Shown: positions 41,072 to 62,134 of the stretch, piece by piece | Numbering within the stretch: the stretch's first letter is position 1 | Layout: the number at the start of each line of letters is the position of its first letter | Assembly (NCBI RefSeq): GCF_000526935.1 | Contig: NZ_JAHA01000007.1 | Span: 62,001-126,000 of the forward strand | Direction: 5' to 3' | Length of the DNA stretch: 64,000 bases | Origin: Butyrivibrio sp. FCS014 | GTDB taxonomy: Bacteria; Bacillota; Clostridia; Lachnospirales; Lachnospiraceae | The notes under the pieces: generated by a model | What the model saw: only the letters and a program-made list of their open reading frames with translations | Database searches by the model: none | Told to the model about the DNA's origin: nothing | Position numbers and translations under genes: made by a program

Positions 41072-41082
41072 GGAGGAGCATT

Positions 41083-42069: not shown

Positions 42070-42093
42070 TATGGAAATGGGAGGAAGATCCAA

Positions 42094-43161
42094 GTGGGTT
42101 ACAAGGAAGAAGAAATCAAAAAACTGAATTTGAAGTATTTCAATGGAAAGGAGTCGGAGACATATGCTTTTCTCATGGTTCCCAAAGCAATTCTGTATGA
42201 CAAGGAATATGAAGGGCTTAAGCTATCAGAGATTCTGATATATTCAAGCCTCCTTGAAAGAATGAAGCTGGGCGGAAATATTAGCGGACATGATGAACTG
42301 GGGAGAGCATATGTCTACTGTTCATTGGAAATGGCACAGCAATTTGGCCACTGTAAAAGAAGCTCAGCTATAACAGCTCTTAAGAGCCTTGAGGCCAGAG
42401 GGATGATTGAAAAAGATACAAGATGCCCAGGAAGTGTCTCAAGATTCTATGTGAAAAACTTCCTTATCAACGATATGCAGAAGTACAAAAAACAAACTTT
42501 TGGAGCGATTGATAAAAAGAGAATCCTTGAATCTGCTGGATCTACAGATGTGGATAACTTCACACCAGTCCAAAATTTAAACTATGGAGTACAGAATTTG
42601 GATGGGGGTAGTGTGAATTTTGAATCTAAACCCGTTCAAAATTTGGACCCATATAATAATAAAAATATAAAAAATATTAATAATAATCTCATCCCTATCT
42701 ATCCCAGTAACAGTAATAAACAAAGGGTTGATGGGATAGGATTGGATGAAGATGCATGGGCATATAGAGAGTGTGTTGATGAAAATATCGAGACGGAAGC
42801 TCTTTGCCGGAATTATCCTGGGAACGCAGGGATTATCAGAGGAATAGCTGATCTCATGGTTGATGTCCTGACTTCATCCAAGGAGAAAATGGTCATTGGA
42901 GGTGAAGAGAGGAGCACCAATGTGGTTAAGGGAAGATTCATGAAGCTCACAAGATTCCACATCGAGGACGTTCTTGATAACTGGAACAAACTTGCAGAGC
43001 CGCCAATAAATCCAAGGCAGTATCTCCTGGCAATGCTTTACAACGTATCAACAACAGCTGATGCGCAATTTAAGGCAGTGATAAACAAAGACGCCAGGAA
43101 TAACTTCCGGAGCGTGGAAGAAACCAATAACACAGATGATGACGAGTATATGGAGGGTTGA
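42094..43161 (+). CDS. repA: RepA_N-family replication initiator
   Basis: A 355-residue protein. The N-terminal winged-helix domain reads MVPKAILYDKEYEGLKLSE, ILIYSSLLERMKLGG, then GRAYVYCSLEMAQQFGHCKR and ITALKSLEARGMIEKDTR, the RepA_N family of plasmid initiators. The middle is Asn-rich (residues 155-210) and encoded by repeats and AT-rich DNA. A C-terminal region resembles DUF6017-like tails (FMKLTRFHIEDVLDNWNKL). GTG start after GGGAGGAAG. It marks this module as plasmid-derived. Confidence 0.88.
   Translation: MGYKEEEIKKLNLKYFNGKESETYAFLMVPKAILYDKEYEGLKLSEILIYSSLLERMKLGGNISGHDELGRAYVYCSLEMAQQFGHCKRSSAITALKSLEARGMIEKDTRCPGSVSRFYVKNFLINDMQKYKKQTFGAIDKKRILESAGSTDVDNFTPVQNLNYGVQNLDGGSVNFESKPVQNLDPYNNKNIKNINNNLIPIYPSNSNKQRVDGIGLDEDAWAYRECVDENIETEALCRNYPGNAGIIRGIADLMVDVLTSSKEKMVIGGEERSTNVVKGRFMKLTRFHIEDVLDNWNKLAEPPINPRQYLLAMLYNVSTTADAQFKAVINKDARNNFRSVEETNNTDDDEYMEG
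42568..42690 (+). repeat. Iteron-like repeats plus AT-rich tract, candidate in-gene origin
   Basis: Four AATTT-centred units (cores at 42574, 42595, 42616 and 42640; steps 21, 21 and 24) have flanks such as GTCCAAAATTT and AAATTTGGAC. They are followed by about 40 bases that are almost pure A/T (42651-42690). RepA_N plasmids such as pAD1 and pSK41 carry their origin within rep, so this is the natural candidate. Confidence 0.5.
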
Positions 43162-45739: not shown

Positions 45740-47476
45740 ATGCTTAGTATGGTAAAAAAGTTCTTTGACTTCTGCAATGAAAAGAACAGGAATAAGTTTT
45801 ATAAATCAGTTGTACTTGGAGTAATAGATGCAATGTTTGCTGCAATGAAGATACCTGCAGCTTTTGTAGCAATCAAGGCAATTCTTGAGAACAATCTTAC
45901 AAACACTACAATACTCACAGTTATCGGACTCATGCTTGTCAGTACTCTTGGCAAAATGGTCATAAACCGCTTTGCATATATGCTTCAGACGGAAGCAGGC
46001 TATGATACCTGCGCCATGAAACGAATCGAGATAGGTGAGCATCTTCGGTATCTTCCTATGGGATATTTCAACGATACCAGCCTTGGACATATCACTTCTG
46101 TGACAACAAATACCATGGAGCAGACCGGTGATATTGCTACAAGAGCAATAATGCTGGTACTTCAGGGCGGACTGACAACTATAGTTATTGCGCTTTTCAT
46201 GTTCGCCTTTGACTGGAGGATTGGACTTATATCAGTGGCCGGCATAGGAGTCTTTTTCCTGGTGAACAAGTGGACAAATCTTAGCGTTGCAAGAGTTGCT
46301 GATGAGAAGCTTTCTGCTGACCGGGAGATGGTTGGAGTGATCCTTGAGTATATTCAGGGCATTGCCGAGATCAGGAATTATAACATCATAGGACAGAATC
46401 AGTCCAAAGTTCAAAAGTCTATTGAGAGAAAAAAGAAAGCTGATATAGCAGCTGAAATCGCAGCAATCCCGGCAGTTGGAGTACAGAATCTTATCTGCAA
46501 ACTTATCGGAGTAGTGATTGCCGGCGTATCTGTGTATTTCTACCTGACAGGTACTATGGAGCTTGTTTATACAATCGTCATGCTCCTTAGCTCCTTCATG
46601 ATCTTTGAATCACTGGATACCTGCGGTATTTACACTGCGCTTCTCAAGGTAATCGGTAAGGGAGTAGATCTTGCCAATGAGATCCTAAATATCGAGCAGA
46701 TGGATATTGATGGCGCAGATTTTAAGCCTGAAAACAGGGATATCCATTTGGAACATGTAGGATTTGCTTACGAGAATCGAAAGATCATCGACGATGTAAC
46801 TCTGGATATAAAAGAGAATACGACTACCGCTATTGTAGGACCTTCGGGAGGTGGAAAGACGACCATCACTTCCTTGATCGCCCGCTTCTGGGATGTTCAG
46901 GAGGGTAAGGTTACACTTGGTGGCAGGGATGTTAAGGACTACAGCTTTGACAGCCTTATGGAAAATTTCAGCTTTGTATTCCAGAGAGTATATCTTTTTG
47001 AAGATACAATTGCCAATAATATTCGCTTTGGAAAGCCTGAGGCGACAATGGATGAAGTCATTGAAGCTGCCAAGAAAGCTGCATGCCATGAGTTTATCAT
47101 GGGGCTTCCGGATAAATATGAAACTGTAGTAGGTGAAGGCGGAGCTACTCTTTCAGGAGGAGAAAAGCAGAGAATAGCCATCGCCCGTGCCATTATGAAG
47201 GACGCTCCGATCATCATCCTCGATGAAGCTACAGCCAACGTGGATCCGGAGAATGAAAAAGAGCTTACGCAGGCAATTGAGAATCTTACCAAGCAAAAGA
47301 CGATAATCATGATCGCGCACAGACTTAAAACTGTAAGAAATGCAGATCAGATAATCGTTGTCGATAAGGGCAAGATCGTCCAGAAGGGTAGACACGAAGA
47401 ACTAATGGAACAGGATGGTATATATAAGAACTTTATTACCGGCAGAAAACAGGCAGTAAGCTGGAAGATTGCATGA
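45740..47476 (+). CDS. ABC exporter half-transporter (second of pair)
   Basis: A 578-residue partner: membrane domain (about 1-320) and ATPase with Walker A VGPSGGGKTTITSL, Q-loop SFVFQRVYLFE, signature LSGGEKQRIAIARA and Walker B IIILDEATANVDPE. It starts directly after the stop of the first gene, with the site AGGAAGGAGG inside that gene. Together they match the SiaE/IrtB role. Confidence 0.88.
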   Translation: MLSMVKKFFDFCNEKNRNKFYKSVVLGVIDAMFAAMKIPAAFVAIKAILENNLTNTTILTVIGLMLVSTLGKMVINRFAYMLQTEAGYDTCAMKRIEIGEHLRYLPMGYFNDTSLGHITSVTTNTMEQTGDIATRAIMLVLQGGLTTIVIALFMFAFDWRIGLISVAGIGVFFLVNKWTNLSVARVADEKLSADREMVGVILEYIQGIAEIRNYNIIGQNQSKVQKSIERKKKADIAAEIAAIPAVGVQNLICKLIGVVIAGVSVYFYLTGTMELVYTIVMLLSSFMIFESLDTCGIYTALLKVIGKGVDLANEILNIEQMDIDGADFKPENRDIHLEHVGFAYENRKIIDDVTLDIKENTTTAIVGPSGGGKTTITSLIARFWDVQEGKVTLGGRDVKDYSFDSLMENFSFVFQRVYLFEDTIANNIRFGKPEATMDEVIEAAKKAACHEFIMGLPDKYETVVGEGGATLSGGEKQRIAIARAIMKDAPIIILDEATANVDPENEKELTQAIENLTKQKTIIMIAHRLKTVRNADQIIVVDKGKIVQKGRHEELMEQDGIYKNFITGRKQAVSWKIA

Positions 47477-47505
47477 AATTTAGAGGAGTTGTGGAGGAGA
47501 AAAAA

Positions 47506-48093
47506 GTGAACAAGAAATTGGAAGCTAAAGATTTTATTACCGTAGGACTTTTTACAGCACTGTTATTTGTGGTTGAGTTTGCATGTGGAATCCTCGGATT
47601 TATACACCCTTATATCGTAGCATCATACGTGGTGATGATCCCATTGGTAGGTGCCATTCCGATGATGCTTTTCTATACAAAGATCGATAAGTTTGGAATG
47701 ATCAGTATAATGTCAGTTCTTCTGGCTATTATTATGTTTGTCACCGGGATGGGGTATCTTGGAGCTCCACTTATCATCGCGGCAGGAGTGATAGCTGATT
47801 TCGTTGCCAAAAGCGGAGATTATAAGGATTTTAAGAAGATTGCCATCAGCTATGGAATATTCTGTCTTTGGATCTGTGCTAACTATTTTCCTGTGATCGT
47901 AAGCGCTAAATCATACAGACAGGATCTTCTTGATGGGGGATACACTGCTGAGTATTGCGACAGTCTCTTTAGAGCTATCAATTCAAAAACCATTGCAGTT
48001 TTGCTTGTCCTTTGTTTGTTATTTGGATTTCTTGGAGCTTTCCTTGGAAAAGCAGTGGTCAGAAAGCATTTTGAGAAAGCCGGTATTGCATAA
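47506..48093 (+). CDS. ECF transporter substrate-specific (S) component, MptD/Trep_Strep family
   Basis: A 195-residue membrane protein with about five or six helices. KLEAKDFITVGLFTALLFVV and the C-terminal LGAFLGKAVVRKHFEKAG are typical of the Trep_Strep S-component family. The GTG at 47506 is well placed after GGAGGAG; an ATG at 47473 overlapping the previous stop is the alternative. In group A Streptococcus the related SiaFGH set imports haem, so haem or another tetrapyrrole/iron complex is a reasonable guess. Confidence 0.8.
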   Translation: MNKKLEAKDFITVGLFTALLFVVEFACGILGFIHPYIVASYVVMIPLVGAIPMMLFYTKIDKFGMISIMSVLLAIIMFVTGMGYLGAPLIIAAGVIADFVAKSGDYKDFKKIAISYGIFCLWICANYFPVIVSAKSYRQDLLDGGYTAEYCDSLFRAINSKTIAVLLVLCLLFGFLGAFLGKAVVRKHFEKAGIA

Positions 48094-48795
48094 ATGGAAT
48101 TAAAACTAGACCCAAGGACAAAACTGTATATGATATTTGTTGTGTCGGCAGTTGTAATGATGAGTGCAACTACGCCCTTTTTATGGGGGCTAAGGATAGC
48201 AATAACTATGGTTCCAATAGCTCTTTTGATAGTGGAAAAACAATATGCATCAGCGCTGCGTTTTCTTGTATTGTATTTGGCTGCGTTAGGGCTTACTTTC
48301 TACTATCTTACGGCACAAGCCACCGGATTTCTGACGGCATTTCTTGTGGGCTATTGCAGTATTGTTGCTCAGTTTATGCCTGCAATGATAACCGCATGGT
48401 ATGTGGTCAGGACTACTAAGATAGATGAGTTTATATCAGCAATGCAAAAGATGCATGTGCCCGATGGAATAACAATTTCCCTGGCGGTAGTGATGAGATT
48501 TTTTCCAACCATCAAGGAAGAGTATGCATCCATACGGGATGCCATGAAAATGCGTGGCGTTATGCTGGGCGGAGGCAGTGCAGTGAAAATGGTGGAGTAC
48601 AGGATGATACCTCTTTTGTTTTCCTGCGTGAATATTGGTGATGAACTGTCCGCTGCGGCAATCACCAGAGGTCTTGGAGGAAAGGTTAAGAGAACCAGTA
48701 TAGAGCAGCTTAAAATGCAGGCACTGGATTACGTTTTTATTTTCGTTTTTACTGCTGCGGCTGTGATATTTGTGGCCTCAAAATACATGAAATGA
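48094..48795 (+). CDS. ECF transporter membrane (T) component
   Basis: A 233-residue EcfT-like protein: five or so helices (LDPRTKLYMIFVVSAVVMM at the start) and the cytoplasmic coupling motif pattern DAMKMRGVMLGGGS and ITRGLGGKVKR. It follows the S component without a gap, and its stop overlaps the next start (ATGATGA). Confidence 0.88.
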   Translation: MELKLDPRTKLYMIFVVSAVVMMSATTPFLWGLRIAITMVPIALLIVEKQYASALRFLVLYLAALGLTFYYLTAQATGFLTAFLVGYCSIVAQFMPAMITAWYVVRTTKIDEFISAMQKMHVPDGITISLAVVMRFFPTIKEEYASIRDAMKMRGVMLGGGSAVKMVEYRMIPLLFSCVNIGDELSAAAITRGLGGKVKRTSIEQLKMQALDYVFIFVFTAAAVIFVASKYMK

Positions 48796-50330
48796 TGAAG
48801 AATATTATAGAGATTAAAAATGTCAGGTTTCACTATAAAGGGGCAAAAGAATCACTGCAGAATGTTTCGCTTTACATAAAGGAGGGCGAAACTCTTTTGC
48901 TGTGCGGAGCATCGGGCTCAGGTAAGACTTCAGTATTAAGACTTATAAATGGTCTGATTCCAAATTATTATCAAGGTGAGCTTACGGGAGAAGTTATGGT
49001 TGCGGGAAGGGATATCTCAAAAACTCCGTTATATGAGCTTGCCGGTGTTGTGGGCACAGTTTTTCAGAATCCGAGAAGCCAGTTTTTCTCAGTTGATACA
49101 GATGGAGAGATTGTATTTGGACCTGAGAATGTTGGCCTTGAACCGGAAGAGATAAAGAGGCGAAAAGAACTGATCATCAATGAGATGGGAATAGATAAGC
49201 TTATGGAGAGAAGTCTCTTTGAATTATCCGGCGGCGAAAAGCAGCAGATAGCCTGTGCTTCGGTGGCAGCTCTTTTACCTGGGATTATACTTCTTGATGA
49301 ACCATCATCAAACCTTGACCGTGATGCCATAGAAAAGCTCCATGACATTATTCTTAAGTGGAAAAAGCAAGGCAAAACAATCATTATCTCTGAGCACAGA
49401 CTCTGGTATTTAAAAGATTTGTTTGATCGCGTGATATATATGGACAAAGGCAGGATTAAGAAGCAGTGGAGTAAGGAAGAGTTTTTGAAGCTCGACACTG
49501 CCACTATAGAGAATTTGAAGCTAAGACCATTGGAAGTGCCCTCATATTTCTCGGTGCTTTTTAATGAAAGGAGCAGTGAAAAAGAGACATCGGAGTCAGG
49601 CATGTCAAATAGTATATTACTGCAGGATTTCTTTTTCTCGTATCGAAGTTCGCCATATCTGTTTAGAAAAAGACATTTCGCGGAGAGTGATGGAGATAGA
49701 CTCGAACTCTGCATTCCTGAGCTTAAACTGCCTAAGGGGAAAGTAATAGGAATAGTTGGAAAAAACGGAACAGGAAAATCGACGTTTCTTAGATGTTTAT
49801 GTGGCTTAGAGAAGGACTGTAGAGGAATCATAGAAACAGATGGAAAAGTATATCGTGGAAATGCCAGGATCGGGCTAAGCTATATGGTCATGCAGGACGT
49901 GAACCATCAGCTTTTTACAGACAGTGTAGAGAGTGAAGTGCTGCTCTCTATGAGTGATAAGGATGAGATACGATGCCATGAAATACTTAAAAATCTTGGC
50001 CTAATTGAGTATAAAGACACACATCCAATGGCGCTATCAGGCGGACAGAAGCAGAGGGTTGCAATAGCGTCTGCTATAGCTGCAGGTGCAGAGATCCTTC
50101 TTTTTGATGAACCGACCTCAGGGCTTGATTTTGATCATATGATGAAAGTTGGACTGCTCTTGAAGGGGCTGGCGCAGTCGGGGAAAACTGTATTGGTATC
50201 AACACATGATCCGGAGCTTATAGAGAAATGCTGTGATTACGAATTGTACATAAAAAATGGCAGAGTAGAGTCGTTTGGCGGAATAGCAGAGAAAATTCTG
50301 AAAAGAAATGAGATTAAAGAAAGTGTATAG
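48792..50330 (+). CDS. ECF transporter ATPase, two fused domains
   Basis: A 512-residue fusion of two EcfA-like ATPases: domain 1 Walker A GASGSGKTSVLRL, signature LSGGEKQQIACA, IILLDEPSSNLD; domain 2 Walker A GKNGTGKSTFLRC, signature LSGGQKQRVAIA, ILLFDEPTSGLD. It completes the importer with EcfT and the S component. Last intact gene of the operon before a broken ABC system. Confidence 0.9.
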   Translation: MMKNIIEIKNVRFHYKGAKESLQNVSLYIKEGETLLLCGASGSGKTSVLRLINGLIPNYYQGELTGEVMVAGRDISKTPLYELAGVVGTVFQNPRSQFFSVDTDGEIVFGPENVGLEPEEIKRRKELIINEMGIDKLMERSLFELSGGEKQQIACASVAALLPGIILLDEPSSNLDRDAIEKLHDIILKWKKQGKTIIISEHRLWYLKDLFDRVIYMDKGRIKKQWSKEEFLKLDTATIENLKLRPLEVPSYFSVLFNERSSEKETSESGMSNSILLQDFFFSYRSSPYLFRKRHFAESDGDRLELCIPELKLPKGKVIGIVGKNGTGKSTFLRCLCGLEKDCRGIIETDGKVYRGNARIGLSYMVMQDVNHQLFTDSVESEVLLSMSDKDEIRCHEILKNLGLIEYKDTHPMALSGGQKQRVAIASAIAAGAEILLFDEPTSGLDFDHMMKVGLLLKGLAQSGKTVLVSTHDPELIEKCCDYELYIKNGRVESFGGIAEKILKRNEIKESV

Positions 50331-50805: not shown

Positions 50806-51228
50806 TTATGCAATGGCTCTTCCAAGCGCAGAGCAGTTCTTCAGATCATCATCAGAAGGTGCATTGTTGGCAATAACGCTGTCTGTTACAAGATTTGCGT
50901 TATCGGATTTGCATCTTTCCTCCCAGTCACGCATCCACTGGCCATCACCCCAACCATAAGAACCGAAAAGTACTACCTTTTTACCGGATAAAGAGTTTTC
51001 TACTGATGTGAACATTGGATCAAACTCAGTTTCTTCAAGGACCTCTGCTCCCATTGCAGGACAACCGAATGCTATTGCATCGTAACCTGAAACGAGGGAA
51101 GAATTGAACTCAGAAGGTGAGAACATATCGACTGAAGCACCACTGCTTTCAGCACCTGCTTTTACTGCCTCAGCCATTGACTGAGTATTTCCTGTACCAC
51201 TCCAATAAACAATTGCTATTTTACTCAT
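50806..51228 (-). CDS. Flavodoxin
   Basis: A 140-residue FMN electron carrier. FMN phosphate loop WSGTGNTQSMA, then FGCPAMGAEVLEE and LFGSYGWGDGQWM (isoalloxazine loops). Flavodoxins replace ferredoxin when iron is scarce. It is divergent from the HMA gene, with a strong promoter (TTGACA-N16-TACAAT on the minus strand) followed by a GTTAGC operator. Confidence 0.95.
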   Translation of the reverse strand: MSKIAIVYWSGTGNTQSMAEAVKAGAESSGASVDMFSPSEFNSSLVSGYDAIAFGCPAMGAEVLEETEFDPMFTSVENSLSGKKVVLFGSYGWGDGQWMRDWEERCKSDNANLVTDSVIANNAPSDDDLKNCSALGRAIA

Positions 51229-51249: not shown

Positions 51250-51265
51250 GTTAGCTTATGCTAAC
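51250..51265. promoter_or_regulatory. GTTAGC palindrome, operator 2
   Basis: GTTAGCTTATGCTAAC, between the divergent flavodoxin and HMA genes. It begins immediately downstream of the flavodoxin -10, over its start point. Confidence 0.78.
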
Positions 51266-51332: not shown

Positions 51333-51710
51333 ATGGATATTCAGACAATAGTTGCAGCTGCTATATTTGTCGCAGCAATAATTCTTTTAATAATCATGAT
51401 GAAGAAAAAGCTTCTTCATGGAGGCTCATGCTGCGGAGGACATGAAGCGCCTGAATCTAAAGTGAAGGTGGCCGATAAGAATATTAGTCATTACGACTAT
51501 CATTATGAAGTGAGTATTGAAGGCATGGTATGTAGTAACTGTGCTACGAGAGTAGAGAACGCTCTTAACGGAAATGAGGGCATTTATGCAAAGGCCGATC
51601 TGGGAAATAAAAAGGCAGTTATTCATGCCAAGAGAGCGCTAAGCAAAGAAGAAGTGCTTGGGTATGTTAAAGAACTTCCGTATACAATAATGAGTTTTGC
51701 TCAAAAGTAA
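51333..51710 (+). CDS. Membrane-anchored HMA metal-binding protein
   Basis: A 125-residue protein: N-terminal membrane helix (about 5-24), a Cys/His-rich juxtamembrane piece (GGSCCGGHE) like that of FeoB-associated small proteins, then a heavy-metal-associated domain (GMVCSNC...RVENAL, residues about 62-120). It may bind copper, zinc or iron at the membrane. An approximate 120-base copy lies at 43734. It is the first gene of an operon of methyltransferase genes. Confidence 0.85.
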   Translation: MDIQTIVAAAIFVAAIILLIIMMKKKLLHGGSCCGGHEAPESKVKVADKNISHYDYHYEVSIEGMVCSNCATRVENALNGNEGIYAKADLGNKKAVIHAKRALSKEEVLGYVKELPYTIMSFAQK

Positions 51711-51736: not shown

Positions 51737-52336
51737 ATGTTTTGGGATAAGATTTCACCTTTATATGATCTTTTTGAGAATATCTATAATCATAAGGTAT
51801 ACGCTGACACAGGAAAAAGAGTCGCTGACTTCATAGAGAGCACCGATGAGGTTTTGGAGTGTGCCTGCGGAACAGGAGCTATCAGTTTTTATATTGCGAA
51901 GAATTGTAAGACGCTGATTGCTACAGACTTTTCATCCGGAATGCTAAAACAGGCTTCCAGGAAATGCAGTACTTATAATAATGTTTATTTCAAAAAAGCA
52001 GATATCACAAATATCAAATGCAGGGATTCATGGTTTGATAAGGTTGTTGCGGGCAACGTGATCCATTTGCTTCCTGATCCGGGAAAGGCTTTTGCTGAGC
52101 TGTGGCGTGTGGTTAAACCGGGAGGCAAGATAATCATCCCAACATACATCAATAAGTCAAAACAGTCTGCAGGACTGGCAGTAAAGTTTGTCACGCTGCT
52201 CGGTGCAGACTTTAAGCAGCAGTTTGATCTTGATTCTTACAAGAAATTCTTCGAGAACCTGGGATATCAGGGCGTGGAGTACACAGTAGTTGATGGCAGA
52301 ATGCCATGCGCTATTGCGGTGATCACAAAGGTGTAA
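51737..52336 (+). CDS. Class I SAM-dependent methyltransferase
   Basis: A 199-residue methyltransferase: motif I VLECACGTGAISFYIA, acidic loop IATDFSSGML, VVAGNVIHLLPDP, and the FAELWRVVKPGGKIIIPTYI strand. Substrate unknown. It is the first of four methyltransferase domains in the island. Confidence 0.85.
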   Translation: MFWDKISPLYDLFENIYNHKVYADTGKRVADFIESTDEVLECACGTGAISFYIAKNCKTLIATDFSSGMLKQASRKCSTYNNVYFKKADITNIKCRDSWFDKVVAGNVIHLLPDPGKAFAELWRVVKPGGKIIIPTYINKSKQSAGLAVKFVTLLGADFKQQFDLDSYKKFFENLGYQGVEYTVVDGRMPCAIAVITKV

Positions 52337-52338
52337 AC

Positions 52339-53079
52339 ATGATTATTATGAATGATAAAGCTGGTTTTAGTAGAAGTACAAAAGGATTATATCCCAGGAA
52401 ATATAACGAGAAAGTGAAGAAATGGCTTGTTGAAAGGTATGGTAAGGATAAGGCTGAAAGAATATGGGGGTGCCTTCAGGAAAACTATCTTCGGTTTCTG
52501 AATGAACTTCCGGATTATGGCGGTGCGAAAAACGGACATGCATCAGCGATATATGGAGGTTTTCTGATTTTTTCATTGTATCAGGCCCTGCCAGATCAAC
52601 CGAAGATAGAAGAATTGCAGGACTTCGTACAAAATCTTTTCATGGAGCCGTTTACAAAACTGGGTAAGGTGGTAGATCTTAATAAACCATTTTACATGAA
52701 GCTCATAAACTATGTGTTTACCAGGGTTGGGGACAGGGATAGGAAAGATATATTAAAGTACCCGGATGGTTTCATAAATGTAACGGAAGGTTATGATAAA
52801 GAACATCTTGCTTCGAGATATTACTTTACACAATGCCCTAACGCTGAAATCGCAAAGAGATATGGGTTATTACATGTACTTCCGCTTATGTGTAACTGTG
52901 ATTTTTATGGAATATCACAAATACATGGAAAGCTTGTCAGGGAAGGTACCTGCGGAAACAGTTCGAGGTGCGATTATCTTGTAATAGGGGATAAGAACCC
53001 CTTGGCATCCGAATATGAGACGGTAACCGATAAGGACGGATTTGTAGTAAGTAGACGGGTGGAGTTTAAAGCAGAATGA
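52339..53079 (+). CDS. L-2-amino-thiazoline-4-carboxylic acid hydrolase-family protein
   Basis: A 246-residue protein. The C-terminal half (FTQCPNAEIAKRYGLLHVLP, LMCNCDFYGISQIHGKLVREGTCGNSSRCDYLV) fits the ATC-hydrolase family widespread in gut clostridia, whose true substrate is usually unknown. Cys/His residues in CNCDF and GTCGNSSRCDY could bind metal or act catalytically. A second ATG lies 9 bases on. It overlaps the next gene by ATGA. Confidence 0.75.
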   Translation: MIIMNDKAGFSRSTKGLYPRKYNEKVKKWLVERYGKDKAERIWGCLQENYLRFLNELPDYGGAKNGHASAIYGGFLIFSLYQALPDQPKIEELQDFVQNLFMEPFTKLGKVVDLNKPFYMKLINYVFTRVGDRDRKDILKYPDGFINVTEGYDKEHLASRYYFTQCPNAEIAKRYGLLHVLPLMCNCDFYGISQIHGKLVREGTCGNSSRCDYLVIGDKNPLASEYETVTDKDGFVVSRRVEFKAE

Positions 53080-53768
53080 CTAGCGGAGAAACTGAAAGAA
53101 TTGATTGGGAAAGAATAAGGCATCTGTTAAAGGTTGGATGTTTTGCAGCATTAATGGTATTGGCAGCGGATATGATTCTGGGATGGGGAACATTTTACAG
53201 GGATGTACCCGGTCTTCCACCCATGTGGGCAAGATTCCTTTTAGTATCAGATGGAAGGATAATTGCATCAGCGCTTCTGGGGCTTATAGGGATTCCGTTG
53301 GAATGTCTGTGCTGGTTTGCTGTTTATCGCATGATAAAGCCCTTTTCTGAAAAGAATGCACATGATTACAGAGCTGGGCTCATAGGATGCCTTGCGTTTG
53401 GAGGATGTGGAGTGCATGTCCCATGCTGCATGGCGGTTTTTTTATTGAAGAGATTCTATCAATTGAATCCTGATACTGTGGTCGAAAACATGAAACCATT
53501 TCTGATCTGGTTCCTGTTACCTGCGACAATGATATTTCTGATCTTCTTTATACTTACAGCAGTAGTTCAGATAAGAGCATTCATCAAAGGAAACACGCCA
53601 TTACCGAAGTGGTGCTGGGTATTTAATATTATGATTGGGATACCATGGATTGTTTTAATGAGAGTCGTAGGAGATTATCCAATTACCAATGCTCTTGCTG
53701 CAGCATGGATCAGCGTTGGTAATTTATGGATGATGGGCGGGCTGCTCATTATGACCAGAGGGAAATGA
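53076..53768 (+). CDS. Conserved multi-pass membrane protein (DUF6796-like)
   Basis: A 230-residue protein with about six hydrophobic segments and the conserved-looking patches DVPGLPPMWARFLLVSDGR, GGCGVHVPCCM and VVGDYPITNALAAAWISVGN. Tentatively the DUF6796 family. Operon position suggests a role with the ATC-hydrolase-type and methyltransferase genes. Confidence 0.6.
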   Translation: MTSGETERIDWERIRHLLKVGCFAALMVLAADMILGWGTFYRDVPGLPPMWARFLLVSDGRIIASALLGLIGIPLECLCWFAVYRMIKPFSEKNAHDYRAGLIGCLAFGGCGVHVPCCMAVFLLKRFYQLNPDTVVENMKPFLIWFLLPATMIFLIFFILTAVVQIRAFIKGNTPLPKWCWVFNIMIGIPWIVLMRVVGDYPITNALAAAWISVGNLWMMGGLLIMTRGK

Positions 53769-53820
53769 GATAGTAGGCGGAATGTATTTCTATTAAGAGG
53801 GAGATTTTTGGAGGAGCTTT

Positions 53821-55356
53821 ATGTCTAAAAAGGCATCAAATTTTCAGAAAGTAGTAATGTCCTGGGGGTATCGCGGAAAAGAAATATTTAAACCGCTGAA
53901 TACGGGATGGATTGATGAAAATGTGGCTTGTGTCCGGGAATGGATTGCCAATATCTTCTTTTATACCAAGAATGGCACAACAATCATGATTGATGCCGGA
54001 TATAACTATGAGCGGCTTGCAGAGAAGATGAAATGGCTTGATATAGAGCCATCGAGCATAAAAGACATCCTGATAACACATCAGGATACTGATCATGTCG
54101 GCGCTGTGGAGAGAGACTCTGATGGACTGTTCAGGAATGCCAGACTGTATATCAGTGAAATTGAAAATAGATATATGACTGGCGAGAAGCGGCGCAAGGT
54201 AATCTTTGGGCTGTATAAGCTTCCGATGGTTAAAAGTGATAATGAGAGAAAACTTCTTAAAGATGGCGATGTGTTTTACATTGAGGACATCAAGGTGGAA
54301 GCAATCCTGGTTCCGGGTCATACTTGGGGGCATATGGTCTATCTGGTAGATGACGCTTATCTTTTCACCGGAGACACGATCTGGTTCGGCGCAGATGGCG
54401 GCTACAGTTTTATAAACGCACTGGCAGAGGATAACGAACTGTCAAAGAAGTCCCTGGCAAAGCTTGAGAAGCTACTTCGCGACAGGGGTATCAGGCCGAA
54501 GGTGATAACAGGCCATACAGGATGGTCTGATGATCTGGATTTTGTATTTGCGCACAGAGACCAGATCTGCAATAGTTTGAAGAGACAAAAACCTCATGAT
54601 CCTAATGCTCCTTATGATGGATATGACGAGAGGGAAGATAACGAAGAGAGGGCAAGAACCGAACGGCTAAAAAAGGCAGTTCCTGTATCTGACAGAATCC
54701 AGAGCGCCTATCATGATTCAAAAAATATCTATGATGATGTTCTGACACAGGGAAGTTTCCTTAGCAGGCAGTACATTCGCTTTTTCTGGAGCGGTACTGA
54801 TGACAATGAAATAGCAAGGAAAATACTTGCTTATGTTCCAGATGATTTCTCCGGGACACTACTTGATGTACCTGTAGGAACTGCGGTTTTTACAGAAAAG
54901 AAGTGGAGAAGGCTTTCAAAAGCTGGTATTACCTGCCTTGATTACAGCGTCGATATGCTGGAACAGGCAAAGAAAAGGCTTGAGGATTGTAAGAATATCT
55001 CATTTATTCAGGGAGATGTGGGAAAACTTCCTCTTGCTGATGGCAGCCAGGATATAGTCATGAGTATGAATGGATTTCATGCTTTCCCCGATAAGAAGAA
55101 GGCTTTTAAGGAGACATTCCGCGTTCTTAAGAAAGGTGGAATGTTTGTAGCATGCTTTTATATCAAGGGTAAATCCAAGAGAACAGACTGGCTTGTAAAG
55201 AACATTCTATCTAAAAAGGGCTGGTTTACACCGCCATTTCCTACAGAAGATCAGCTGCTTCGTATTCTTCATAAGCTATATTCTCAGGTTGAATATCATG
55301 TGGATGGTTCTATGGTGTATTTTAAATGCGTGAAGAGCAGATCTTTAAATGAATGA
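53821..55356 (+). CDS. Metallo-beta-lactamase fold and methyltransferase fusion protein
   Basis: A 511-residue fusion. N-terminal metallo-beta-lactamase-type hydrolase (about 20-245): THQDTDHVGA in place of HxHxDH, VPGHTWGHMVYLVDD, LFTGDTIWFG and VITGHTGWSDD. C-terminal class I methyltransferase (about 325-500): LLDVPVGTAVFTEK, CLDYSVDMLEQAK, SMNGFHAFPDK and FKETFRVLKKGG. The second metal-ligand His is replaced by Asp, as in several MBL subfamilies. Start follows GGAGGAG. Confidence 0.85.
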   Translation: MSKKASNFQKVVMSWGYRGKEIFKPLNTGWIDENVACVREWIANIFFYTKNGTTIMIDAGYNYERLAEKMKWLDIEPSSIKDILITHQDTDHVGAVERDSDGLFRNARLYISEIENRYMTGEKRRKVIFGLYKLPMVKSDNERKLLKDGDVFYIEDIKVEAILVPGHTWGHMVYLVDDAYLFTGDTIWFGADGGYSFINALAEDNELSKKSLAKLEKLLRDRGIRPKVITGHTGWSDDLDFVFAHRDQICNSLKRQKPHDPNAPYDGYDEREDNEERARTERLKKAVPVSDRIQSAYHDSKNIYDDVLTQGSFLSRQYIRFFWSGTDDNEIARKILAYVPDDFSGTLLDVPVGTAVFTEKKWRRLSKAGITCLDYSVDMLEQAKKRLEDCKNISFIQGDVGKLPLADGSQDIVMSMNGFHAFPDKKKAFKETFRVLKKGGMFVACFYIKGKSKRTDWLVKNILSKKGWFTPPFPTEDQLLRILHKLYSQVEYHVDGSMVYFKCVKSRSLNE

Positions 55357-55396
55357 AGAGTAGCATCGTAAAAACATGAATGAAGTCTGATGTGCT

Positions 55397-55412
55397 GTTA
55401 GCAAATGCTAAC
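55397..55412. promoter_or_regulatory. GTTAGC palindrome, operator 3
   Basis: GTTAGCAAATGCTAAC, 43 bases before the first gene of the operon that carries feoAB. TATATA (55415-55420) follows directly. Confidence 0.78.
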
Positions 55413-55454
55413 TTTATATAAATGACTAATCAGAAAAGAGGAGGAAAAAAAGTA

Positions 55455-56219
55455 ATGAAACCGGACTATAAGAACTGGGTGCCAAATGGGATGGTATATG
55501 GATTTTTGGGAGCTACCGGTGGGGCACTTATATTGACCTTGATCTTTGGCGTGGAAGGAATAGTTGGAAAGGTACTATTGGTAATAACTATAGTTCTTGC
55601 GCTAATGACGCTTTGGATGTTTCTGATGCACAGGGCATTTTCTTACAATGGCTCAAGGCAGATGTCCAGGCAGATAATTGATGGTGTTTCAGCCTATGTG
55701 AAGATTCCTGATGGAGGGAAAGGACTGGATGTCGGGTGTGGCAGCGGCGCGCTTACAATCGCATGTGCCAAGAAGAATCCAAATGCACAGATGGTTGGAA
55801 TAGACAGATGGGGAAAAGAATATGCGTCATTCAGCAAGACTCTTTGCGAAAGCAATGCAGAAGCTGAAGGAGCAGCAAATGTTTCTTTTGGTCAGGGAGA
55901 TGCTACAAAGCTTGGATTTGAAGATGAGACTTTTGACGCAGTGACAAGCAACTATGTATATCACAACATCCCCAGCAGGGACAGGCAGGCTATCCTCCTG
56001 GAGACGCTGAGAACACTGAAAAAGGGTGGAACATTTGCTATCCATGACATCATGTCAAAGAGCAAATACGGAGATATAGAGAGTTTTGCCAAAAAGCTTA
56101 AAGACATGGGCTACGAGGAAGTGCGGCTTGTTGATACTACCAGCGGAATGTTCATGAATAAGTTTGAAGCCACTTGGATGGGACTTAGTGGATCAACGAT
56201 TCTTATGGGTAAAAAATAA
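55455..56219 (+). CDS. Membrane-anchored SAM-dependent methyltransferase
   Basis: A 254-residue protein: two N-terminal membrane helices (about 14-60), then a class I methyltransferase with GLDVGCGSGALTIACAKK (motif I), MVGIDRWGKEYASF, SNYVYHNIPSRDRQ and TLKKGGTFAIHDIM. The ATG at 55455 follows AGAGGAGG; an upstream in-frame ATG at 55422 overlaps that site. First gene of the feo operon. Confidence 0.85.
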   Translation: MKPDYKNWVPNGMVYGFLGATGGALILTLIFGVEGIVGKVLLVITIVLALMTLWMFLMHRAFSYNGSRQMSRQIIDGVSAYVKIPDGGKGLDVGCGSGALTIACAKKNPNAQMVGIDRWGKEYASFSKTLCESNAEAEGAANVSFGQGDATKLGFEDETFDAVTSNYVYHNIPSRDRQAILLETLRTLKKGGTFAIHDIMSKSKYGDIESFAKKLKDMGYEEVRLVDTTSGMFMNKFEATWMGLSGSTILMGKK

Positions 56220-56241
56220 AATGAGTGATGAGGAGGATACA

Positions 56242-56868
56242 ATGATGGGATTATTCAAGAATTATGTAAGTCAGACAAGAAAACCGGAAGGGGTTCTCGG
56301 GAAAATGATGATCAATGGTATGAACAGTGGTCATGCTAAGATGGCGGACTGGGGAATATCACATCTTGAAGTCAGTGCACCCAAAGAGATGGTCGAACTT
56401 GGCTGTGGTGGGGGAAGAAATGCCGGGGTACTCATGGAAAAATACTCTTCGGCAAATATGACAGCAATTGACTACTCGCCGCTGTCTGTCGAAAAAGCAA
56501 CAGAATACAACAAGGTAATGATCGATAAAGGAAGGTGCCAGGTTAAGCAGGGAGATGTATCAAATCTAACTCTTCCGGAAGAAAAGTATGATCTGGCAAC
56601 TGCATTTGAAACTATATATTTCTGGCCGGGACTGGAGAAATGCTTTTCAGAAGTGGCAAAGGTTTTAAAGCCGGGTGGAACCTTCATGATTGTAAACGAA
56701 TCAGATGGTACAGACAAAGCGAGCCTGAGCTTTGAGAAGATCATCGATGGGATGAGGTGTCATACTCCTGATGAGATAGAAAAAGCTTTAAAAAGCGCAG
56801 GCTTTTCAAAAGTGAGGACAGATCACCATGAATCTAAGCCATGGATTACTGTAATGGCAGAGAAATAA
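56242..56868 (+). CDS. Class I SAM-dependent methyltransferase
   Basis: A 208-residue methyltransferase: VELGCGGGRNAGVLMEKY (motif I), MTAIDYSPLSVEKA, QGDVSNLTLPEEKYDLA and LKPGGTFMIVNESDG. The ATG at 56242 follows GAGGAGG. It lies 36 bases before feoA. Substrate unknown. Confidence 0.85.
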   Translation: MMGLFKNYVSQTRKPEGVLGKMMINGMNSGHAKMADWGISHLEVSAPKEMVELGCGGGRNAGVLMEKYSSANMTAIDYSPLSVEKATEYNKVMIDKGRCQVKQGDVSNLTLPEEKYDLATAFETIYFWPGLEKCFSEVAKVLKPGGTFMIVNESDGTDKASLSFEKIIDGMRCHTPDEIEKALKSAGFSKVRTDHHESKPWITVMAEK

Positions 56869-56904: not shown

Positions 56905-57132
56905 ATGAGTTTAAGTGAAGTAAGGGAAAACAAAGATGCAGTGATCACAGCTATTCAAGGCGATACAAGGTTTATGAGCCGTATCACCTCGATAGGACTT
57001 ACACCGGGCTGTAAGGTTAGCGTTATCAAGAACGATAAGAACAGACCTATGCTGGTTTATTCAAGAGATACCATGATCGCACTGAACCGTAAGGAGTGCA
57101 GTGGTATTACAGTCGAGGAGGTGACAGCATGA
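56905..57132 (+). CDS. feoA: Ferrous iron transport protein A
   Basis: A 75-residue SH3-like protein (MSRITSIGLTPGCKVSVIKN, then DTMIALNRKECSGITVEE). FeoA works with FeoB in ferrous iron import. It overlaps the feoB start by ATGA and has its own GAGGAG site. Confidence 0.93.
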   Translation: MSLSEVRENKDAVITAIQGDTRFMSRITSIGLTPGCKVSVIKNDKNRPMLVYSRDTMIALNRKECSGITVEEVTA

Positions 57133-59144
57133 GTGCAGCTGCAACTATAGCCCTCCTTGGACAGCCTAACTCGGGCAAGTCAACTTTATTCAATGCGCTT
57201 ACCGGACTTCGCCAGCATGTGGGAAACTGGCCAGGCAAGACAGTAGAGAAAAAAGAAGGATCTTTTACCTATGCAGGAAAAGAATACAATGTGGCGGATC
57301 TTCCGGGATCCTACAGCCTTTCTGCCAATTCAGATGAAGAGGTTATCACAAGAGATTTTATTACATCAGGAAAAGCTGATGTTGTCTGCATCCTTGCTGA
57401 CAGTTCACAGCTTCAGAGAAGCCTTTTCATGCTGGCTGATTATGCGGGAATAAATGCACCATGCTTTTTATTGCTCAATATGGCAGATGTAGCCGCCGAT
57501 CAGGGAAAAAAGATTGATGCCAAGGCTATAGAGGAAAAGCTTGGCATTCCTGTCATCCCTTTTTCTGCGACAGATGTGAAGTCTTATGACGAGTTCTATA
57601 AAACTCTTGAAAAGGCTATCAAGAAAGACTCAAGGCTTGATGTTTCCAAGCTAAAAGAACAGTACGAGAGTATCAAAGGTTTTCAGGAAATCTGCAACCT
57701 GATTCCTGAAGGCGTTATTCCCGGCTATTCTTCAATGTGGCTTGCTTCAAAGGTGCTTGAGAATGACAAGGTAGTTGTTGCGAAGCTTAAAAATACACTG
57801 GATGCATCTGTTTTTTCAGAAATTGAAAGTATCAAAGATTCATCCCAGGGCGCTGTGGCTGTCGGCGGCTGCAAATTCGCCTGGATCGATGATGTGATAG
57901 ACGGTGCAATCCAATCTAAGTCTGTAAAGGTAACCCTTGGAAAACTTGACCGTATCTATACAAGTAAAGTCTGGGGAAAGCCTGCGGTTATACTTACTGT
58001 TCTATTAGGTCTTATTGCTTCATTTGTTCCTGCTCTTCCGCCCATGTTTCTGGGCGAGCTGGTTCTTATGACTAAAGCTCCGATTACTGCAGGATTATCA
58101 GCTATAGGATGTCCTGAATTCGTTATGCTCATCATTACAGATGTAATAATTCAGTCATTCTCATATATTTTCAAGATGTTGGGATTTGTGTTTGGTGTAA
58201 CCCTTGTATTCGGACTTCTTGAGGAAGTGGGCATCATGGCCCGTATCTCCTATGTGTTTGACAACACCATGGGTAAGCTTGGGCTTCAGGGAAAGTCAGT
58301 CATGCCATTCCTGGTAAGCTTTGGATGTACCATGGGAGGCGCAGCGGGCGCAAGAGTTATAGATAACTGGGGACAGAAGGTTCTCACGATCGCTCTGGCA
58401 TGGGCAGTGCCTTGCGGCGCAGCCTGGGCAACCATTCCTATGCTTTCATCTATTTTCTTCGGTCCAGGAGCAGTTCTTGTGGTGGCTGTAATCCTTCTTA
58501 CTATGCTCTTGCACATGTATGTCACGGCCAAAGTCTTTGGAGCTAAGCTTGTTCAGAAGGAAGACCGCTACGGAATGATCATGGAGCTTCCTCCGTACCA
58601 CAAACCAAAGTGGGGAGCTCTTTTCAGATATGTATTCGGAAGAACAAAGGAAACATTTATCAGAGTAACAAAGGTGGTTCTACTTGTTTGCGGAGTATTC
58701 TGGCTTCTTAGCTATTCTCCATCCGGAACAGGAGGAATCCTTTACACAATCGGTGTAGCAATAGAGCCTGTCACAAAGTTCTTCGGAATGCCATGGCAGT
58801 TATTCCTTTCCTACATTGCATCTGCTGTTGGAAAAGAAGGTGCTATCGGTGTCATAAGTGCACTTTATAGTGGTGGTTCATATAGCACAGCATTTACAGA
58901 GGCTATGAGTGGTGCAGGAACTACCGCAAATCTTAGTTCTGTTCTTCTTGCGAACGTAACAAAGCCGGAGGCCTTAGCATTTATCTTTGCCATGACCTTC
59001 AACATGCCTTGCGTCGTTGCCCTCGCGGCTACATATCAGGAGACACATTCAGCAAAATGGACAGGAAGGATTGTGCTTTATTACACAGCAGTATCTCTTT
59101 TGCTTGCGTTTATTGCTTATCATGTGGGAATGCTCATCTGGTGA
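57129..59144 (+). CDS. feoB: Ferrous iron transport protein B
   Basis: A 671-residue GTP-gated Fe2+ importer. G domain: G1 GQPNSGKSTLF, G3 DLPGSYSL, G4 NMAD; then the helical regulator domain and the membrane part with about 8-11 helices, including gate repeats GFVFGVTLVFGLLEEVG and FMPCVVALAAT. Long enough to be intact. Expected to import Fe2+ across the cytoplasmic membrane. Confidence 0.96.
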   Translation: MSAAATIALLGQPNSGKSTLFNALTGLRQHVGNWPGKTVEKKEGSFTYAGKEYNVADLPGSYSLSANSDEEVITRDFITSGKADVVCILADSSQLQRSLFMLADYAGINAPCFLLLNMADVAADQGKKIDAKAIEEKLGIPVIPFSATDVKSYDEFYKTLEKAIKKDSRLDVSKLKEQYESIKGFQEICNLIPEGVIPGYSSMWLASKVLENDKVVVAKLKNTLDASVFSEIESIKDSSQGAVAVGGCKFAWIDDVIDGAIQSKSVKVTLGKLDRIYTSKVWGKPAVILTVLLGLIASFVPALPPMFLGELVLMTKAPITAGLSAIGCPEFVMLIITDVIIQSFSYIFKMLGFVFGVTLVFGLLEEVGIMARISYVFDNTMGKLGLQGKSVMPFLVSFGCTMGGAAGARVIDNWGQKVLTIALAWAVPCGAAWATIPMLSSIFFGPGAVLVVAVILLTMLLHMYVTAKVFGAKLVQKEDRYGMIMELPPYHKPKWGALFRYVFGRTKETFIRVTKVVLLVCGVFWLLSYSPSGTGGILYTIGVAIEPVTKFFGMPWQLFLSYIASAVGKEGAIGVISALYSGGSYSTAFTEAMSGAGTTANLSSVLLANVTKPEALAFIFAMTFNMPCVVALAATYQETHSAKWTGRIVLYYTAVSLLLAFIAYHVGMLIW

Positions 59145-59168: not shown

Positions 59169-59444
59169 ATGGAACAACTTTTGGAACTGTTAAAAGATGG
59201 CCGTGCCAGAACCACAAAGCTTCTTGCCATAGAACTTCATACCAGTGAGGAAGATGTCACCAGACAGATGGAATATCTTGAAAACATGGGTATCATTAAA
59301 AGAGTGGTGTTCACATCCAAGAGTTGTTCAGGATGCAGTGGATGCTCATCCGGAAGCCACTCAGATGGACATACCTGCAAAGGATGCCTGCCTCAGGATG
59401 GATTTCAAAACATGGGACAGATGTGGGAAGTGGTGACGCCATGA
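59169..59444 (+). CDS. feoC: FeoC-like Cys-rich winged-helix protein
   Basis: A 91-residue protein: an N-terminal winged helix (LLELLKDGRARTTKLLAIEL, DVTRQMEYLENMGIIKRV) and a Cys-rich wing (SCSGCSGCSSGSHSDGHTCKGC). The layout is that of FeoC-type proteins whose Cys residues can hold an Fe-S cluster. It follows feoB with GGAGGCG. Five Cys plus His gives more metal ligands than Escherichia coli FeoC. Confidence 0.8.
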   Translation: MEQLLELLKDGRARTTKLLAIELHTSEEDVTRQMEYLENMGIIKRVVFTSKSCSGCSGCSSGSHSDGHTCKGCLPQDGFQNMGQMWEVVTP

Positions 59445-59555: not shown

Positions 59556-61631
59556 TCAATCATCCAACAGATTTGTCATGCTCTTCATGCTTAGAGCAAT
59601 GGTAGATGCGTTGTGTAGGAATGCTGTAGTGGTTGGGGTGAAGATACCCAACATACCCATAATTATCAGGAAGGAGTTAAACCCGATAATGGAATTGTAG
59701 TTCAGGTTGATCCTTCGCATCAGCTCTGTACTGAGACTTCTAAGCGTTAAAAGAGCTCCAAGATCATCAGAGGAGATGGTTATATCTGCAATCTCTCTTG
59801 CAATGGAAGCTCCTGTGCTGACGGCGATTCCTGCATCTGCCTCTGAAAGAGCAGGTGAGTCATTGATACCGTCACCTATCATGATTACTTTTCTACCTGC
59901 TTCATGTTCTTTTCTTATGAATTCAGCCTTGTCTTCAGGAAGAACTTCAGAGAAGTATCTTGTCACACCGGTCTTTTCTGCAACCGACTTGGCTGTTCTG
60001 TCACTGTCTCCGGTCATCATAACTACATTTTCAAAACCAACCTCTTTCAATTTCCTTATTACCGAAGGAGCCTCATCTCTAAGTGGATCTTCGATAAGTA
60101 TTACTGCAGCGAGTTCTTCACCGATAGCCATATACAGGTGCGAATACTCAGGTGGAAGAGAATCGAACCTGTCAGTGAATCCACTTGGAACAATACACTT
60201 TTCGTCCTCAAAGATGTAGTGATGGCTTCCTATACATACCTTTTTACCGTCAATCGTACTGGAAATGCCATGTGCAACGATATAGGCAGCTCTGGTGTGC
60301 TTTTCTTCATGAGTAAGTCCTTTGACTTCTGCAGCTTTTACCACTGCGTTGGCTATGGAGTGAGGGTAGTGTTCCTCAAGACACGCAGCAAGGCGAAGCA
60401 TCTCATCTTCGTCATTCTCGCCAAAAGTAACAACCTTGGCAACTTTTGGTGTGGCATGAGTCAGAGTTCCGGTTTTGTCGAAGACTATTGTTTTTGCTTC
60501 AGCCACAGCCTCCATGAACTTGCCGCCTTTTACAGATATCTTGTGATCACCGGCTTCTCTCATTGCTGAGAGTACTGAAATAGGCATGGCGAGCTTTAAT
60601 GCGCAGCAGAAGTCCACCATAAGGATTGATGTGGCCTTGGTGGCATTTCTGGTAAATAGCCAGGTGAGGAGTGTGGCACCAAAAGTATAGGGAACAAGTC
60701 TGTCGGCCAGGTGTGCAGCCTTTGCTTCTGACTCGGATTTGAGCTTCTCGGATTCCTCTATCATAGCTACAATCCTGTCGTATCGTCCCTGCCCCTGTGC
60801 CTTCTGTACGGTTATGACAAGCTCACCTTCGTCAATAACAGTACCGGCGTATACAAGAGAGCCTTCTGTTTTGTGGACAGGCTCGGATTCACCGGTCATG
60901 GCTGCCTGATTTACGGAAGCATCACCGCTTAGTACTACACCGTCAAGGGGGATCATGGTGCCGGTTCTGACAACTATCCTGTCATTCTCTTTTATGTCAG
61001 AGATATTTGAAAGGACCTCCTGGCCGTCAGAAGAAAGCATCCATACCTTGTCTACATTCAGGGACATGGCCCTTGCAAGGTCATCGACGGACTTTTTGTG
61101 AGTCCAGTCCTCCATCATCTCACCCATTTCAAGAAGGAACATTACATTGCTTGCTGTTGCATGATCGCCTCTGAGCAGTGATACCGCAATGCTGGTTGCA
61201 TCAAGAACAGAAACCTCAAGCTTTCCGGAGAGCAGGCACTTGAGCCCCTTAATTATGTAAGGGATAGCCTTTAGATATATGATCACCCTTCTTATCTGCA
61301 ATGGAATGATGAATCTGCGGACAAGCTTGCCTGCAATATGGAAGAACATTCTGTCTTCGTATTCGATACGGAGTTCCCTGCCTGTATGTTCGGGCACAGT
61401 AATCTCTGTTCTCTCACTATATTCAGAAAACGCCTGTATCAGATCATTCCTGCAGGAAGAGTCATAGAAAACTATGGCATTTGAAGTCCGTTCATTTACA
61501 TCAGCTTTTTTTACAAAAGGAAGTGAGGAGAGATAATACTGGATCTTATCAGCTTCAAAAGAAGACATATGGCGTACAGCAATGTGTACACGCATACGTC
61601 CCCCATTTTCATGCAATATTTTACAATTCAT
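59556..61631 (-). CDS. P1B-type metal ATPase, candidate ferrosome FezB-like
   Basis: A 691-residue transporter. The N-terminus is a degenerate HMA-like region without CxxC, followed by helices, then the actuator TGES (AAMTGESEPVHKTEGS), the transmembrane metal motif FCCALKLAMP (341-350) instead of the usual CPC, phosphorylation DKTGTLT (D385), the HP-like loop YPHS, and MIGDGINDSPAL. Loss of CPC with retained CALKLA points to an unusual P1B subgroup. P1B-6 ATPases such as FezB drive iron into ferrosomes. The pairing with the small gene upstream supports this, but the assignment is inference. Confidence 0.75.
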   Translation of the reverse strand: MNCKILHENGGRMRVHIAVRHMSSFEADKIQYYLSSLPFVKKADVNERTSNAIVFYDSSCRNDLIQAFSEYSERTEITVPEHTGRELRIEYEDRMFFHIAGKLVRRFIIPLQIRRVIIYLKAIPYIIKGLKCLLSGKLEVSVLDATSIAVSLLRGDHATASNVMFLLEMGEMMEDWTHKKSVDDLARAMSLNVDKVWMLSSDGQEVLSNISDIKENDRIVVRTGTMIPLDGVVLSGDASVNQAAMTGESEPVHKTEGSLVYAGTVIDEGELVITVQKAQGQGRYDRIVAMIEESEKLKSESEAKAAHLADRLVPYTFGATLLTWLFTRNATKATSILMVDFCCALKLAMPISVLSAMREAGDHKISVKGGKFMEAVAEAKTIVFDKTGTLTHATPKVAKVVTFGENDEDEMLRLAACLEEHYPHSIANAVVKAAEVKGLTHEEKHTRAAYIVAHGISSTIDGKKVCIGSHHYIFEDEKCIVPSGFTDRFDSLPPEYSHLYMAIGEELAAVILIEDPLRDEAPSVIRKLKEVGFENVVMMTGDSDRTAKSVAEKTGVTRYFSEVLPEDKAEFIRKEHEAGRKVIMIGDGINDSPALSEADAGIAVSTGASIAREIADITISSDDLGALLTLRSLSTELMRRINLNYNSIIGFNSFLIIMGMLGIFTPTTTAFLHNASTIALSMKSMTNLLDD

Positions 61632-61662
61632 AGTATGCCTTTCATCTAAGCTTACTTATGTC

Positions 61663-61959
61663 TTATGCATTAGCGGCTTCAGCTTCAGCGCTTGCCAGAA
61701 CAGCCTTTGCATCCTCTATTTCTTTTGCTCTTTCATCAGCATAGCGTTTTTCATTGATTTCCTTTGCATCAGCACTGATATCCTGACAGTTCTCCTTGAT
61801 GTTAGTGTAGGTCTCAAGGCATGTATCCTTGCATCTGTACGCCGCAGCAGTTATATGTGTGTAGCATTTCTTGGCATCCTTGCTGGAGAGGAGCTTAACT
61901 CCTGCTGTACCAAGCGCGAAACCGCATGCCACTTTTCCTATTGTGCTCCAATTAATCAT
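61663..61959 (-). CDS. Small helical membrane protein, candidate FezA-like (DUF6110-like)
   Basis: A 98-residue protein: N-terminal hydrophobic helix with GxxxG (GFALGTAG, residues 12-19), then KDAKK and a Cys-bearing helix (CYTHITAAAYRCKDTCLETY), then a long Ala/Glu/Lys coiled-coil-like tail. It lies 31 bases before the P1B ATPase and is cotranscribed with it. Small DUF6110-type partners are found with ferrosome-type ATPases. Function is inferred. Confidence 0.6.
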   Translation of the reverse strand: MINWSTIGKVACGFALGTAGVKLLSSKDAKKCYTHITAAAYRCKDTCLETYTNIKENCQDISADAKEINEKRYADERAKEIEDAKAVLASAEAEAANA

Positions 61960-62118
61960 AGATAGTCCTTTCTGTACCTGGAAATGTACGTTAATAGATT
62001 TGCTAATTAATTATAAAACAGCGAAGGGAGTGTAGAGGCAGCTAACGTGTGAGAATTTTTATCAACAAGGCAGTGGAATGGATGTGCATAAAAACTGCAA
62101 TTATGTCTTTATTTTAGG

Positions 62119-62134
62119 GTTAGCAAGTGCTAAC
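62119..62134. promoter_or_regulatory. GTTAGC palindrome, operator 4
   Basis: GTTAGCAAGTGCTAAC, in the gap between the P1B ATPase pair (minus) and the alpha/beta hydrolase (plus). It could serve either side; it is 86 bases from the hydrolase start and 160 from the small-protein start. Confidence 0.75.

Follow-up and report, generated by a model that had tools for sequence, protein, structure and literature searches.

A DUF6110 protein and a P1B-6 ATPase encoded beside feoAB in Butyrivibrio sp. FCS014: very probable orthologues of the Clostridioides difficile ferrosome genes

Within the window, by which we mean the whole 64,000-nucleotide stretch analysed here, two adjacent minus-strand genes are almost certainly the orthologues of C. 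difficile fezA and fezB, the two-gene kit that C. difficile uses for iron-storage organelles, here in a gut and rumen bacterial family. The upstream, fezA-like gene (61663-61959) encodes a 98-aa DUF6110 membrane protein with one GxxxG helix followed by a long charged helix, and 31 bases separate its ORF from that of the fezB-like gene (59556-61631), which encodes a P1B-6 type ATPase of 691 aa with VDFCCALKLAMP in TM4 and LHNAST in TM6. We consider it probable that the pair makes a ferrosome, that is, a membrane-bounded iron store. Specifically, the gene pair, its orthology, the pump subfamily, the linkage to iron uptake, and the iron-type operator sequences back this at the level of genes, while iron as the substrate, regulation by iron, vesicle formation, and storage are what we infer. 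What makes the pair of interest is how it has spread among commensal Clostridia, together with its link to PacL.

The small protein had been described in an earlier note on this DNA as having 98 residues and one GxxxG helix, with a comparison to DUF6110 and FezA proposed as a check. The ORF is present as described, and a Pfam search placed its product in DUF6110 (PF19605, E 1.2e-29), a family that also includes the Clostridioides protein encoded at the position of FezA; no other Pfam family was matched up to E 10, DUF1490 included. In an AlphaFold model (mean pLDDT 77.9, pTM 0.36), G13-x3-G17 and G20 lie in the single membrane-length helix formed by residues 4-23, and residues 27-97 form a single long helix. 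The protein ends in LASAEAEAANA, without a metal-binding motif. Identity to the Clostridioides homologue was 51% over 77 aa by blastp and 37% over the alignment.

The ATPase had likewise been called non-CPC, with a degenerate HMA head, and both descriptions held. Residues 341-350 read FCCALKLAMP where E. coli CopA and ZntA have CPC, the head lacks CxxC, and HMA_2 fell short of its cut-off of 30 bits with a score of 18.8. The ATPase matched TIGR01525, the profile for heavy-metal P-type ATPases, at E 2.2e-142, and the cadmium-type profile TIGR01512 at 339.8 bits, above its cut-off of 313.5. Alignment of 13 pumps of this type showed no variation at the second TM4 cysteine or in the TM6 sequence His-Asn-x-Ser-Thr; the mark of P1B-6 pumps in TM4 is Asp-x-(Ser/Cys)-Cys in place of CPC. 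The window ATPase has both this TM4 mark and HN in TM6, the latter given as a P1B-6 feature in PMC9374683.

For phylogenetic placement, ATPases from 80 loci (a sample among the matches listed, which covered at least 592 stretches of named genomes) were combined with E. coli CopA and ZntA, two paralogues from the same genome as the window, the Clostridioides pump (L085), 12 relatives, and the window ATPase, giving 98 rows, from which a 516-aa fragment (L127) was removed to leave a 97-row tree built by a quick method. A more careful 44-row tree comprised 31 P1B-6 rows, labelled after their motifs were known, and 13 outside rows chosen by hand; in the trees, CtpC-type exporters of manganese or zinc are represented by a single stand-in, a CtpC-like pump (L132). 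All 31 P1B-6 rows, including the window, lay on one side of a branch in the larger tree (SH-aLRT 96) and formed one clade in the smaller (100/98), with CopA, ZntA, the CtpC-like pump and, in the 97-row tree, the two paralogues (L002 and L003) outside. A tree of P1B ATPases was also a check proposed in the earlier note, and in it the window pump is found in the clade of the Clostridioides FezB homologue, apart from CopA, ZntA, and the CtpC-like pump. In the 44-row tree, the 28 P1B-6 rows with a DUF6110 neighbour formed one group (100/99). Pumps from the proteobacteria Rhodobacter capsulatus (L135) and Hahella (L131) share the P1B-6 clade (100/98), but the window pump, unlike them, belongs to this separate subclade, and DUF6110 had no match at E 0.05 in either of those genomes. 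The rows nearest to the window ATPase were L076, from the same genus (76% identity), and L088; all three have Cys-Cys in TM4 and formed one clade (100/100, 44-row tree), while the other 28 P1B-6 rows have Ser-Cys, except L135 with Ala-Cys. The Ser-to-Cys change at the TM4 metal site is limited to this clade among the 31 P1B-6 rows.

Our yardstick for Clostridioides was a genome (G496, locus L085) taken as C. difficile or a sister species from its RpoA, which is identical at 313 of 315 positions to PDB 7l7b_A; 7L7B we take to be the C. difficile polymerase. This genome has a single DUF6110 match (E 1e-20), directly upstream of the pump. The latter is the best match of the window ATPase there (56% over nearly the whole length, the next at 30%), and the two are reciprocal best hits, the next pumps of the window's own genome being only 30-31% identical to the window ATPase. 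In the 44-row tree, the smallest clade holding both was supported at 92/76, and the next one up at 100/99. A PDB search with a neighbour gene of the Clostridioides locus gave no match.

The name fezAB is given to CD630_05910-05920 in PMC11651100. PMC6311696 tables this pair as an ATPase and a hypothetical protein, lists both as going up when iron is low and when fur is mutated, and marks a Fur box at CD630_05920; the pair is reported to be required for ferrosomes (PMC12574912). A FezC cytochrome is described in PMC10979944 for the Desulfovibrio-type ferrosome cluster. The window pair resembles CD630_05920/05910, as represented by L085, in having a DUF6110 protein followed by a P1B-6 ATPase in identical order, and in carrying a Fur-like box upstream. 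It differs in its TM4 Cys-Cys, as opposed to Ser-Cys in the Clostridioides pump, so that metal preference could differ; in the length of the FezA-like protein (98 versus 138 aa); in being adjoined by feoAB and by a second, palindromic operator; and, unlike the C. difficile ferrosome system, in being known from its genes only.

The location of the pair beside feoAB, asserted in the earlier note, was borne out. Convergent to the pair, on the plus strand, are feoA (56905-57132; PF04023, E 4.3e-15) and feoB (57126-59144; TIGR00437, E 3.9e-107, over the cut-off), adjoined by a winged-helix, FeoC-like protein with a Cys-rich tail (59169-59444), for which the FeoC score of 17.9 bits, under the cut-off of 21, provides a lead only. 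The tail of this protein, SCSGCSGCSSGSHSDGHTCKGC, is unusually rich in cysteine. Linkage to feoB recurs elsewhere: of 36 genomes, 14 had feoB within 10 kb of the pair, where the number of feoB genes and the genome sizes predict 0.5. These genomes are related and so not independent, which makes the probability calculated for the excess too small (G233, G234, G256, and G223 were left out of the set).

A shared-operator island had also been claimed, and in its own genome it is real. A predicted palindromic operator common to the iron island lies upstream of the pair (TTAGCAAGTGCTAA, 62120-62133), and further predicted copies are located upstream of two methyltransferase genes that run into feoAB (TTAGCAAATGCTAA, 55398-55411) and between a flavodoxin gene (50806-51228, minus strand) and a gene for an HMA-domain membrane protein (51333-51710, plus strand; TTAGCTTATGCTAA, 51251-51264). 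The underlying TTAGC palindrome, TTAGCNNNNGCTAA, has 12 sites in the 4.09 Mb genome versus 2 for a control pattern, and its 4 sites in the window rank it top of 60 permuted half-sites, the next having 1. Five of the 12 are at iron-linked genes, namely the flavodoxin/HMA-protein pair, the methyltransferase-feoAB run, the fezAB-like pair, a Fur-family gene preceded by one copy, and a siderophore-type Peripla_BP_2/FecCD transporter; one precedes an ABC pair of unproven substrate, and six are at genes without an evident iron link, among which L045, L046, and L047 were judged from ORFs alone. The DtxR-family gene of this genome has no exact copy of the operator.

Beyond this genome the palindrome was again the commonest of 60 permuted half-sites in the 40 DUF6110 regions (16 sites, the next having 3), mostly from few genomes: 13 of the sites came from L076-L095, while L096-L115 held 3, where another permuted half-site has 2. 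The operator was found upstream of feoB in two loci (L084 and L105). As an element conserved with the pair it proved weak and was set aside, being present with at most one mismatch upstream in 4 of 50 relatives, window included. In L084 (13922-13969), two copies precede a DtxR-family gene beside feoB, and this gene is a candidate regulator of the operator.

Closer to the pair, a Fur-like box (TGAGAATTTTTATCA, 62050-62064) lies about 91-105 bp upstream of the fezA-like start. It is the one exact match in the window to TGAKAANNNTTMTCA, for which there are four others with one mismatch. Exact copies of this motif occur upstream of 10 of 50 fezA-like genes, window included, compared with a mean of 0.01 and a maximum of 1 in 200 shuffles and with 2 for the best of 119 other permutations, an excess that is partly by construction since the upstream sequences used for counting were also those from which the motif had been derived. 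Its resemblance to the C. difficile Fur box (consensus TGATAATVAWHWTCA in PMC6311696) is independent of that derivation. In L085, two Fur-like sites with two mismatches each lie about 320-380 bp upstream. We regard the enrichment upstream of fezA-like genes as suggestive. Together, the predicted box and the predicted TTAGC operator would point to induction of the pair by iron shortage, which would fit storage better than detoxifying export.

The two genes travel together across genomes. Of 40 regions around DUF6110 matches (39 genomes), 38 have the ATPase immediately downstream in the same orientation. The exceptions are L087 and L078; the latter is a second DUF6110 copy, and the other one in that genome (L079) is followed by the ATPase. 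In L097 (6940-9008) the ATPase appears as two overlapping ORFs, either broken or a sequencing frameshift. Conversely, DUF6110 was directly upstream in 14 of the 17 named P1B-6 loci examined among the matches listed (L127 excluded), and the three counted without it were all proteobacterial; one that was scored as a miss, L141, has a match of 10.7 bits (E 0.025) just upstream of the pump and another, non-adjacent match at E 0.0004. The distribution is patchy: DUF6110 was detected in 80 of 200 sampled Lachnospiraceae genomes (79 over the cut-off), in 29 of 391 genomes (24 over the cut-off) when the class was searched, a count that includes the window's own genome, and in two of the six same-genus genomes listed. 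Named commensals with the pair include Faecalibacterium prausnitzii and Blautia. The idea that the pair replaces ferritin was rejected, as no trade-off was seen: a clear ferritin (E < 1e-20) was present in 5 of 20 genomes that have the pair and in 4 of 20 that lack it; the window's own genome has only a 22-bit ferritin match, under the cut-off.

In weighing the ferrosome reading, we counted in its favour the DUF6110 match, the P1B-6 clade, the orthology to L085, the adjacency of the genes, the feoB linkage, and the shared operators, and against it the TTAGC operator in only 4 of 50 relatives, the exact Fur-like box in only 10 of 50, the lack of a ferritin trade-off, the TM4 Cys-Cys as opposed to Ser-Cys, and the kinship of DUF6110 to PacL, which works in efflux. 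This kinship underlies the main alternative, which we consider unlikely, that the DUF6110 protein only clusters and stabilises a P1B-6 pump in the plasma membrane that expels a metal, iron or another, with no organelle formed. PMC9374683 describes a relationship of DUF6110 proteins to DUF1490/PacL, notes that their genes typically accompany those of P1B6 pumps, and suggests membrane platforms; PMC13043812 calls them PacL-like and gives K9, G17, and G20 as most conserved in PacL. Consistent with such a platform, 8 of 24 DUF6110 proteins also matched the DUF1490 profile at the loose limit of E 10 (best 2.4e-6), a profile comparison with one DUF1490 protein gave 57.6% probability, and a DUF6110 profile found the same protein at E 2e-5 in a small set. 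The gene of this DUF1490 protein lies next to the CtpC-like pump L132, and L132 and L133 together were the sister group of the P1B-6 and related rows (97/97 in the 44-row tree, 98 in the 97-row tree). The window protein has K9, G17, and G20 at PacL numbering, but only the glycines are kept across the 24 DUF6110 proteins (G17 in 21, G20 in 20); K9, retained in 4, was dropped as a feature common to the two families. As in PacL1-CtpC of Mycobacterium tuberculosis, a zinc efflux platform with a DUF1490 protein, the window pair has one glycine-patterned membrane helix, a long A/E-rich helix, an adjoining pump gene, and an HN motif in TM6 of the pump (PMC9374683 and PMC13043812; relative L132). That system differs in the metal-binding tail of PacL and the TM4 CPC of CtpC, both of which the window pair lacks, and the PacL relative beside L132 ends in DVGHDHEH. 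Also speaking against efflux are the requirement of the C. difficile pair for ferrosomes, as reported in PMC12574912, and the predicted operators of iron type that the pair has in common with iron-uptake genes; for an iron exporter one would expect excess iron to be the inducing condition.

That the ATPase is instead an ordinary copper, zinc, or manganese exporter with an unrelated small neighbour is very improbable. The broad heavy-metal ATPase profiles do match it well, TIGR01512 above its cut-off, but it lacks CPC and a CxxC head, has HN in TM6, and falls in a clade separate from CopA and ZntA, and the small protein is encoded beside such a pump in nearly all of the DUF6110 regions; a copper or zinc exporter was rejected on the motifs and the trees.

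Under the ferrosome reading, then, iron shortage would derepress the promoter of the pair, and the FezA-like proteins would pack side by side in the membrane through the glycine-patterned helix, their long cytosolic helices gathering the pump into a patch that would become a vesicle. The ATPase, whose likely metal site is made up of the TM4 cysteines and the TM6 His-Asn, would move ferrous iron from the cytosol to the lumen, where the iron would precipitate, probably with phosphate, to be released later. If granules form, iron storage in organelles would be common in gut and rumen Clostridia, and it could be studied in harmless strains.

A broader and more tentative proposal, possible but in our judgement somewhat doubtful, is that a single machine underlies both ferrosomes and mycobacterial effluxosomes, with two outcomes. 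FezA and PacL would then constitute one membrane-clustering family, with the same glycine-patterned helix, travelling with one HN-type P1B lineage. As the metal-binding tail and CPC were lost, the machine would have turned from the expulsion of zinc-like metals to the packing of iron in a vesicle; the Ser-to-Cys change in the window lineage may have shifted the stored metal. We lowered our estimate for this proposal slightly because K9 is not kept across DUF6110. A joint ferrosome and PacL reading may be unremarked in the literature searched, which excluded Grant 2022 and Pi 2023: looking there for PacL together with the ferrosome gave a single, unrelated paper, and PMC9374683 and PMC13043812 were absent from the matches to 'ferrosome'. 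The link between DUF6110 and PacL offers a testable idea of how the organelle starts.

Finally, we noted several other features of the window. Consecutive genes for ParA-type AAA_31, ParB_N, and RepA_N proteins (40289-43161) may mark the contig (C7, 498 kb) as a megaplasmid or chromid, which would perhaps put the iron island on a second replicon. At 43961-50330, two genes with an ABC-exporter fold are followed by Trep_Strep, CbiQ, and a double ABC ATPase, with a TTAGC operator upstream, a set that perhaps serves metallophore or metal uptake. Several genes in the region heading towards feoAB (51737-56868) encode methyltransferases, including one fusion to a metallo-beta-lactamase domain, and ATC_hydrolase and DUF6796 are also present; elsewhere in the genome (L043), a Fur-family gene is followed by a methyltransferase pair of similar kind.
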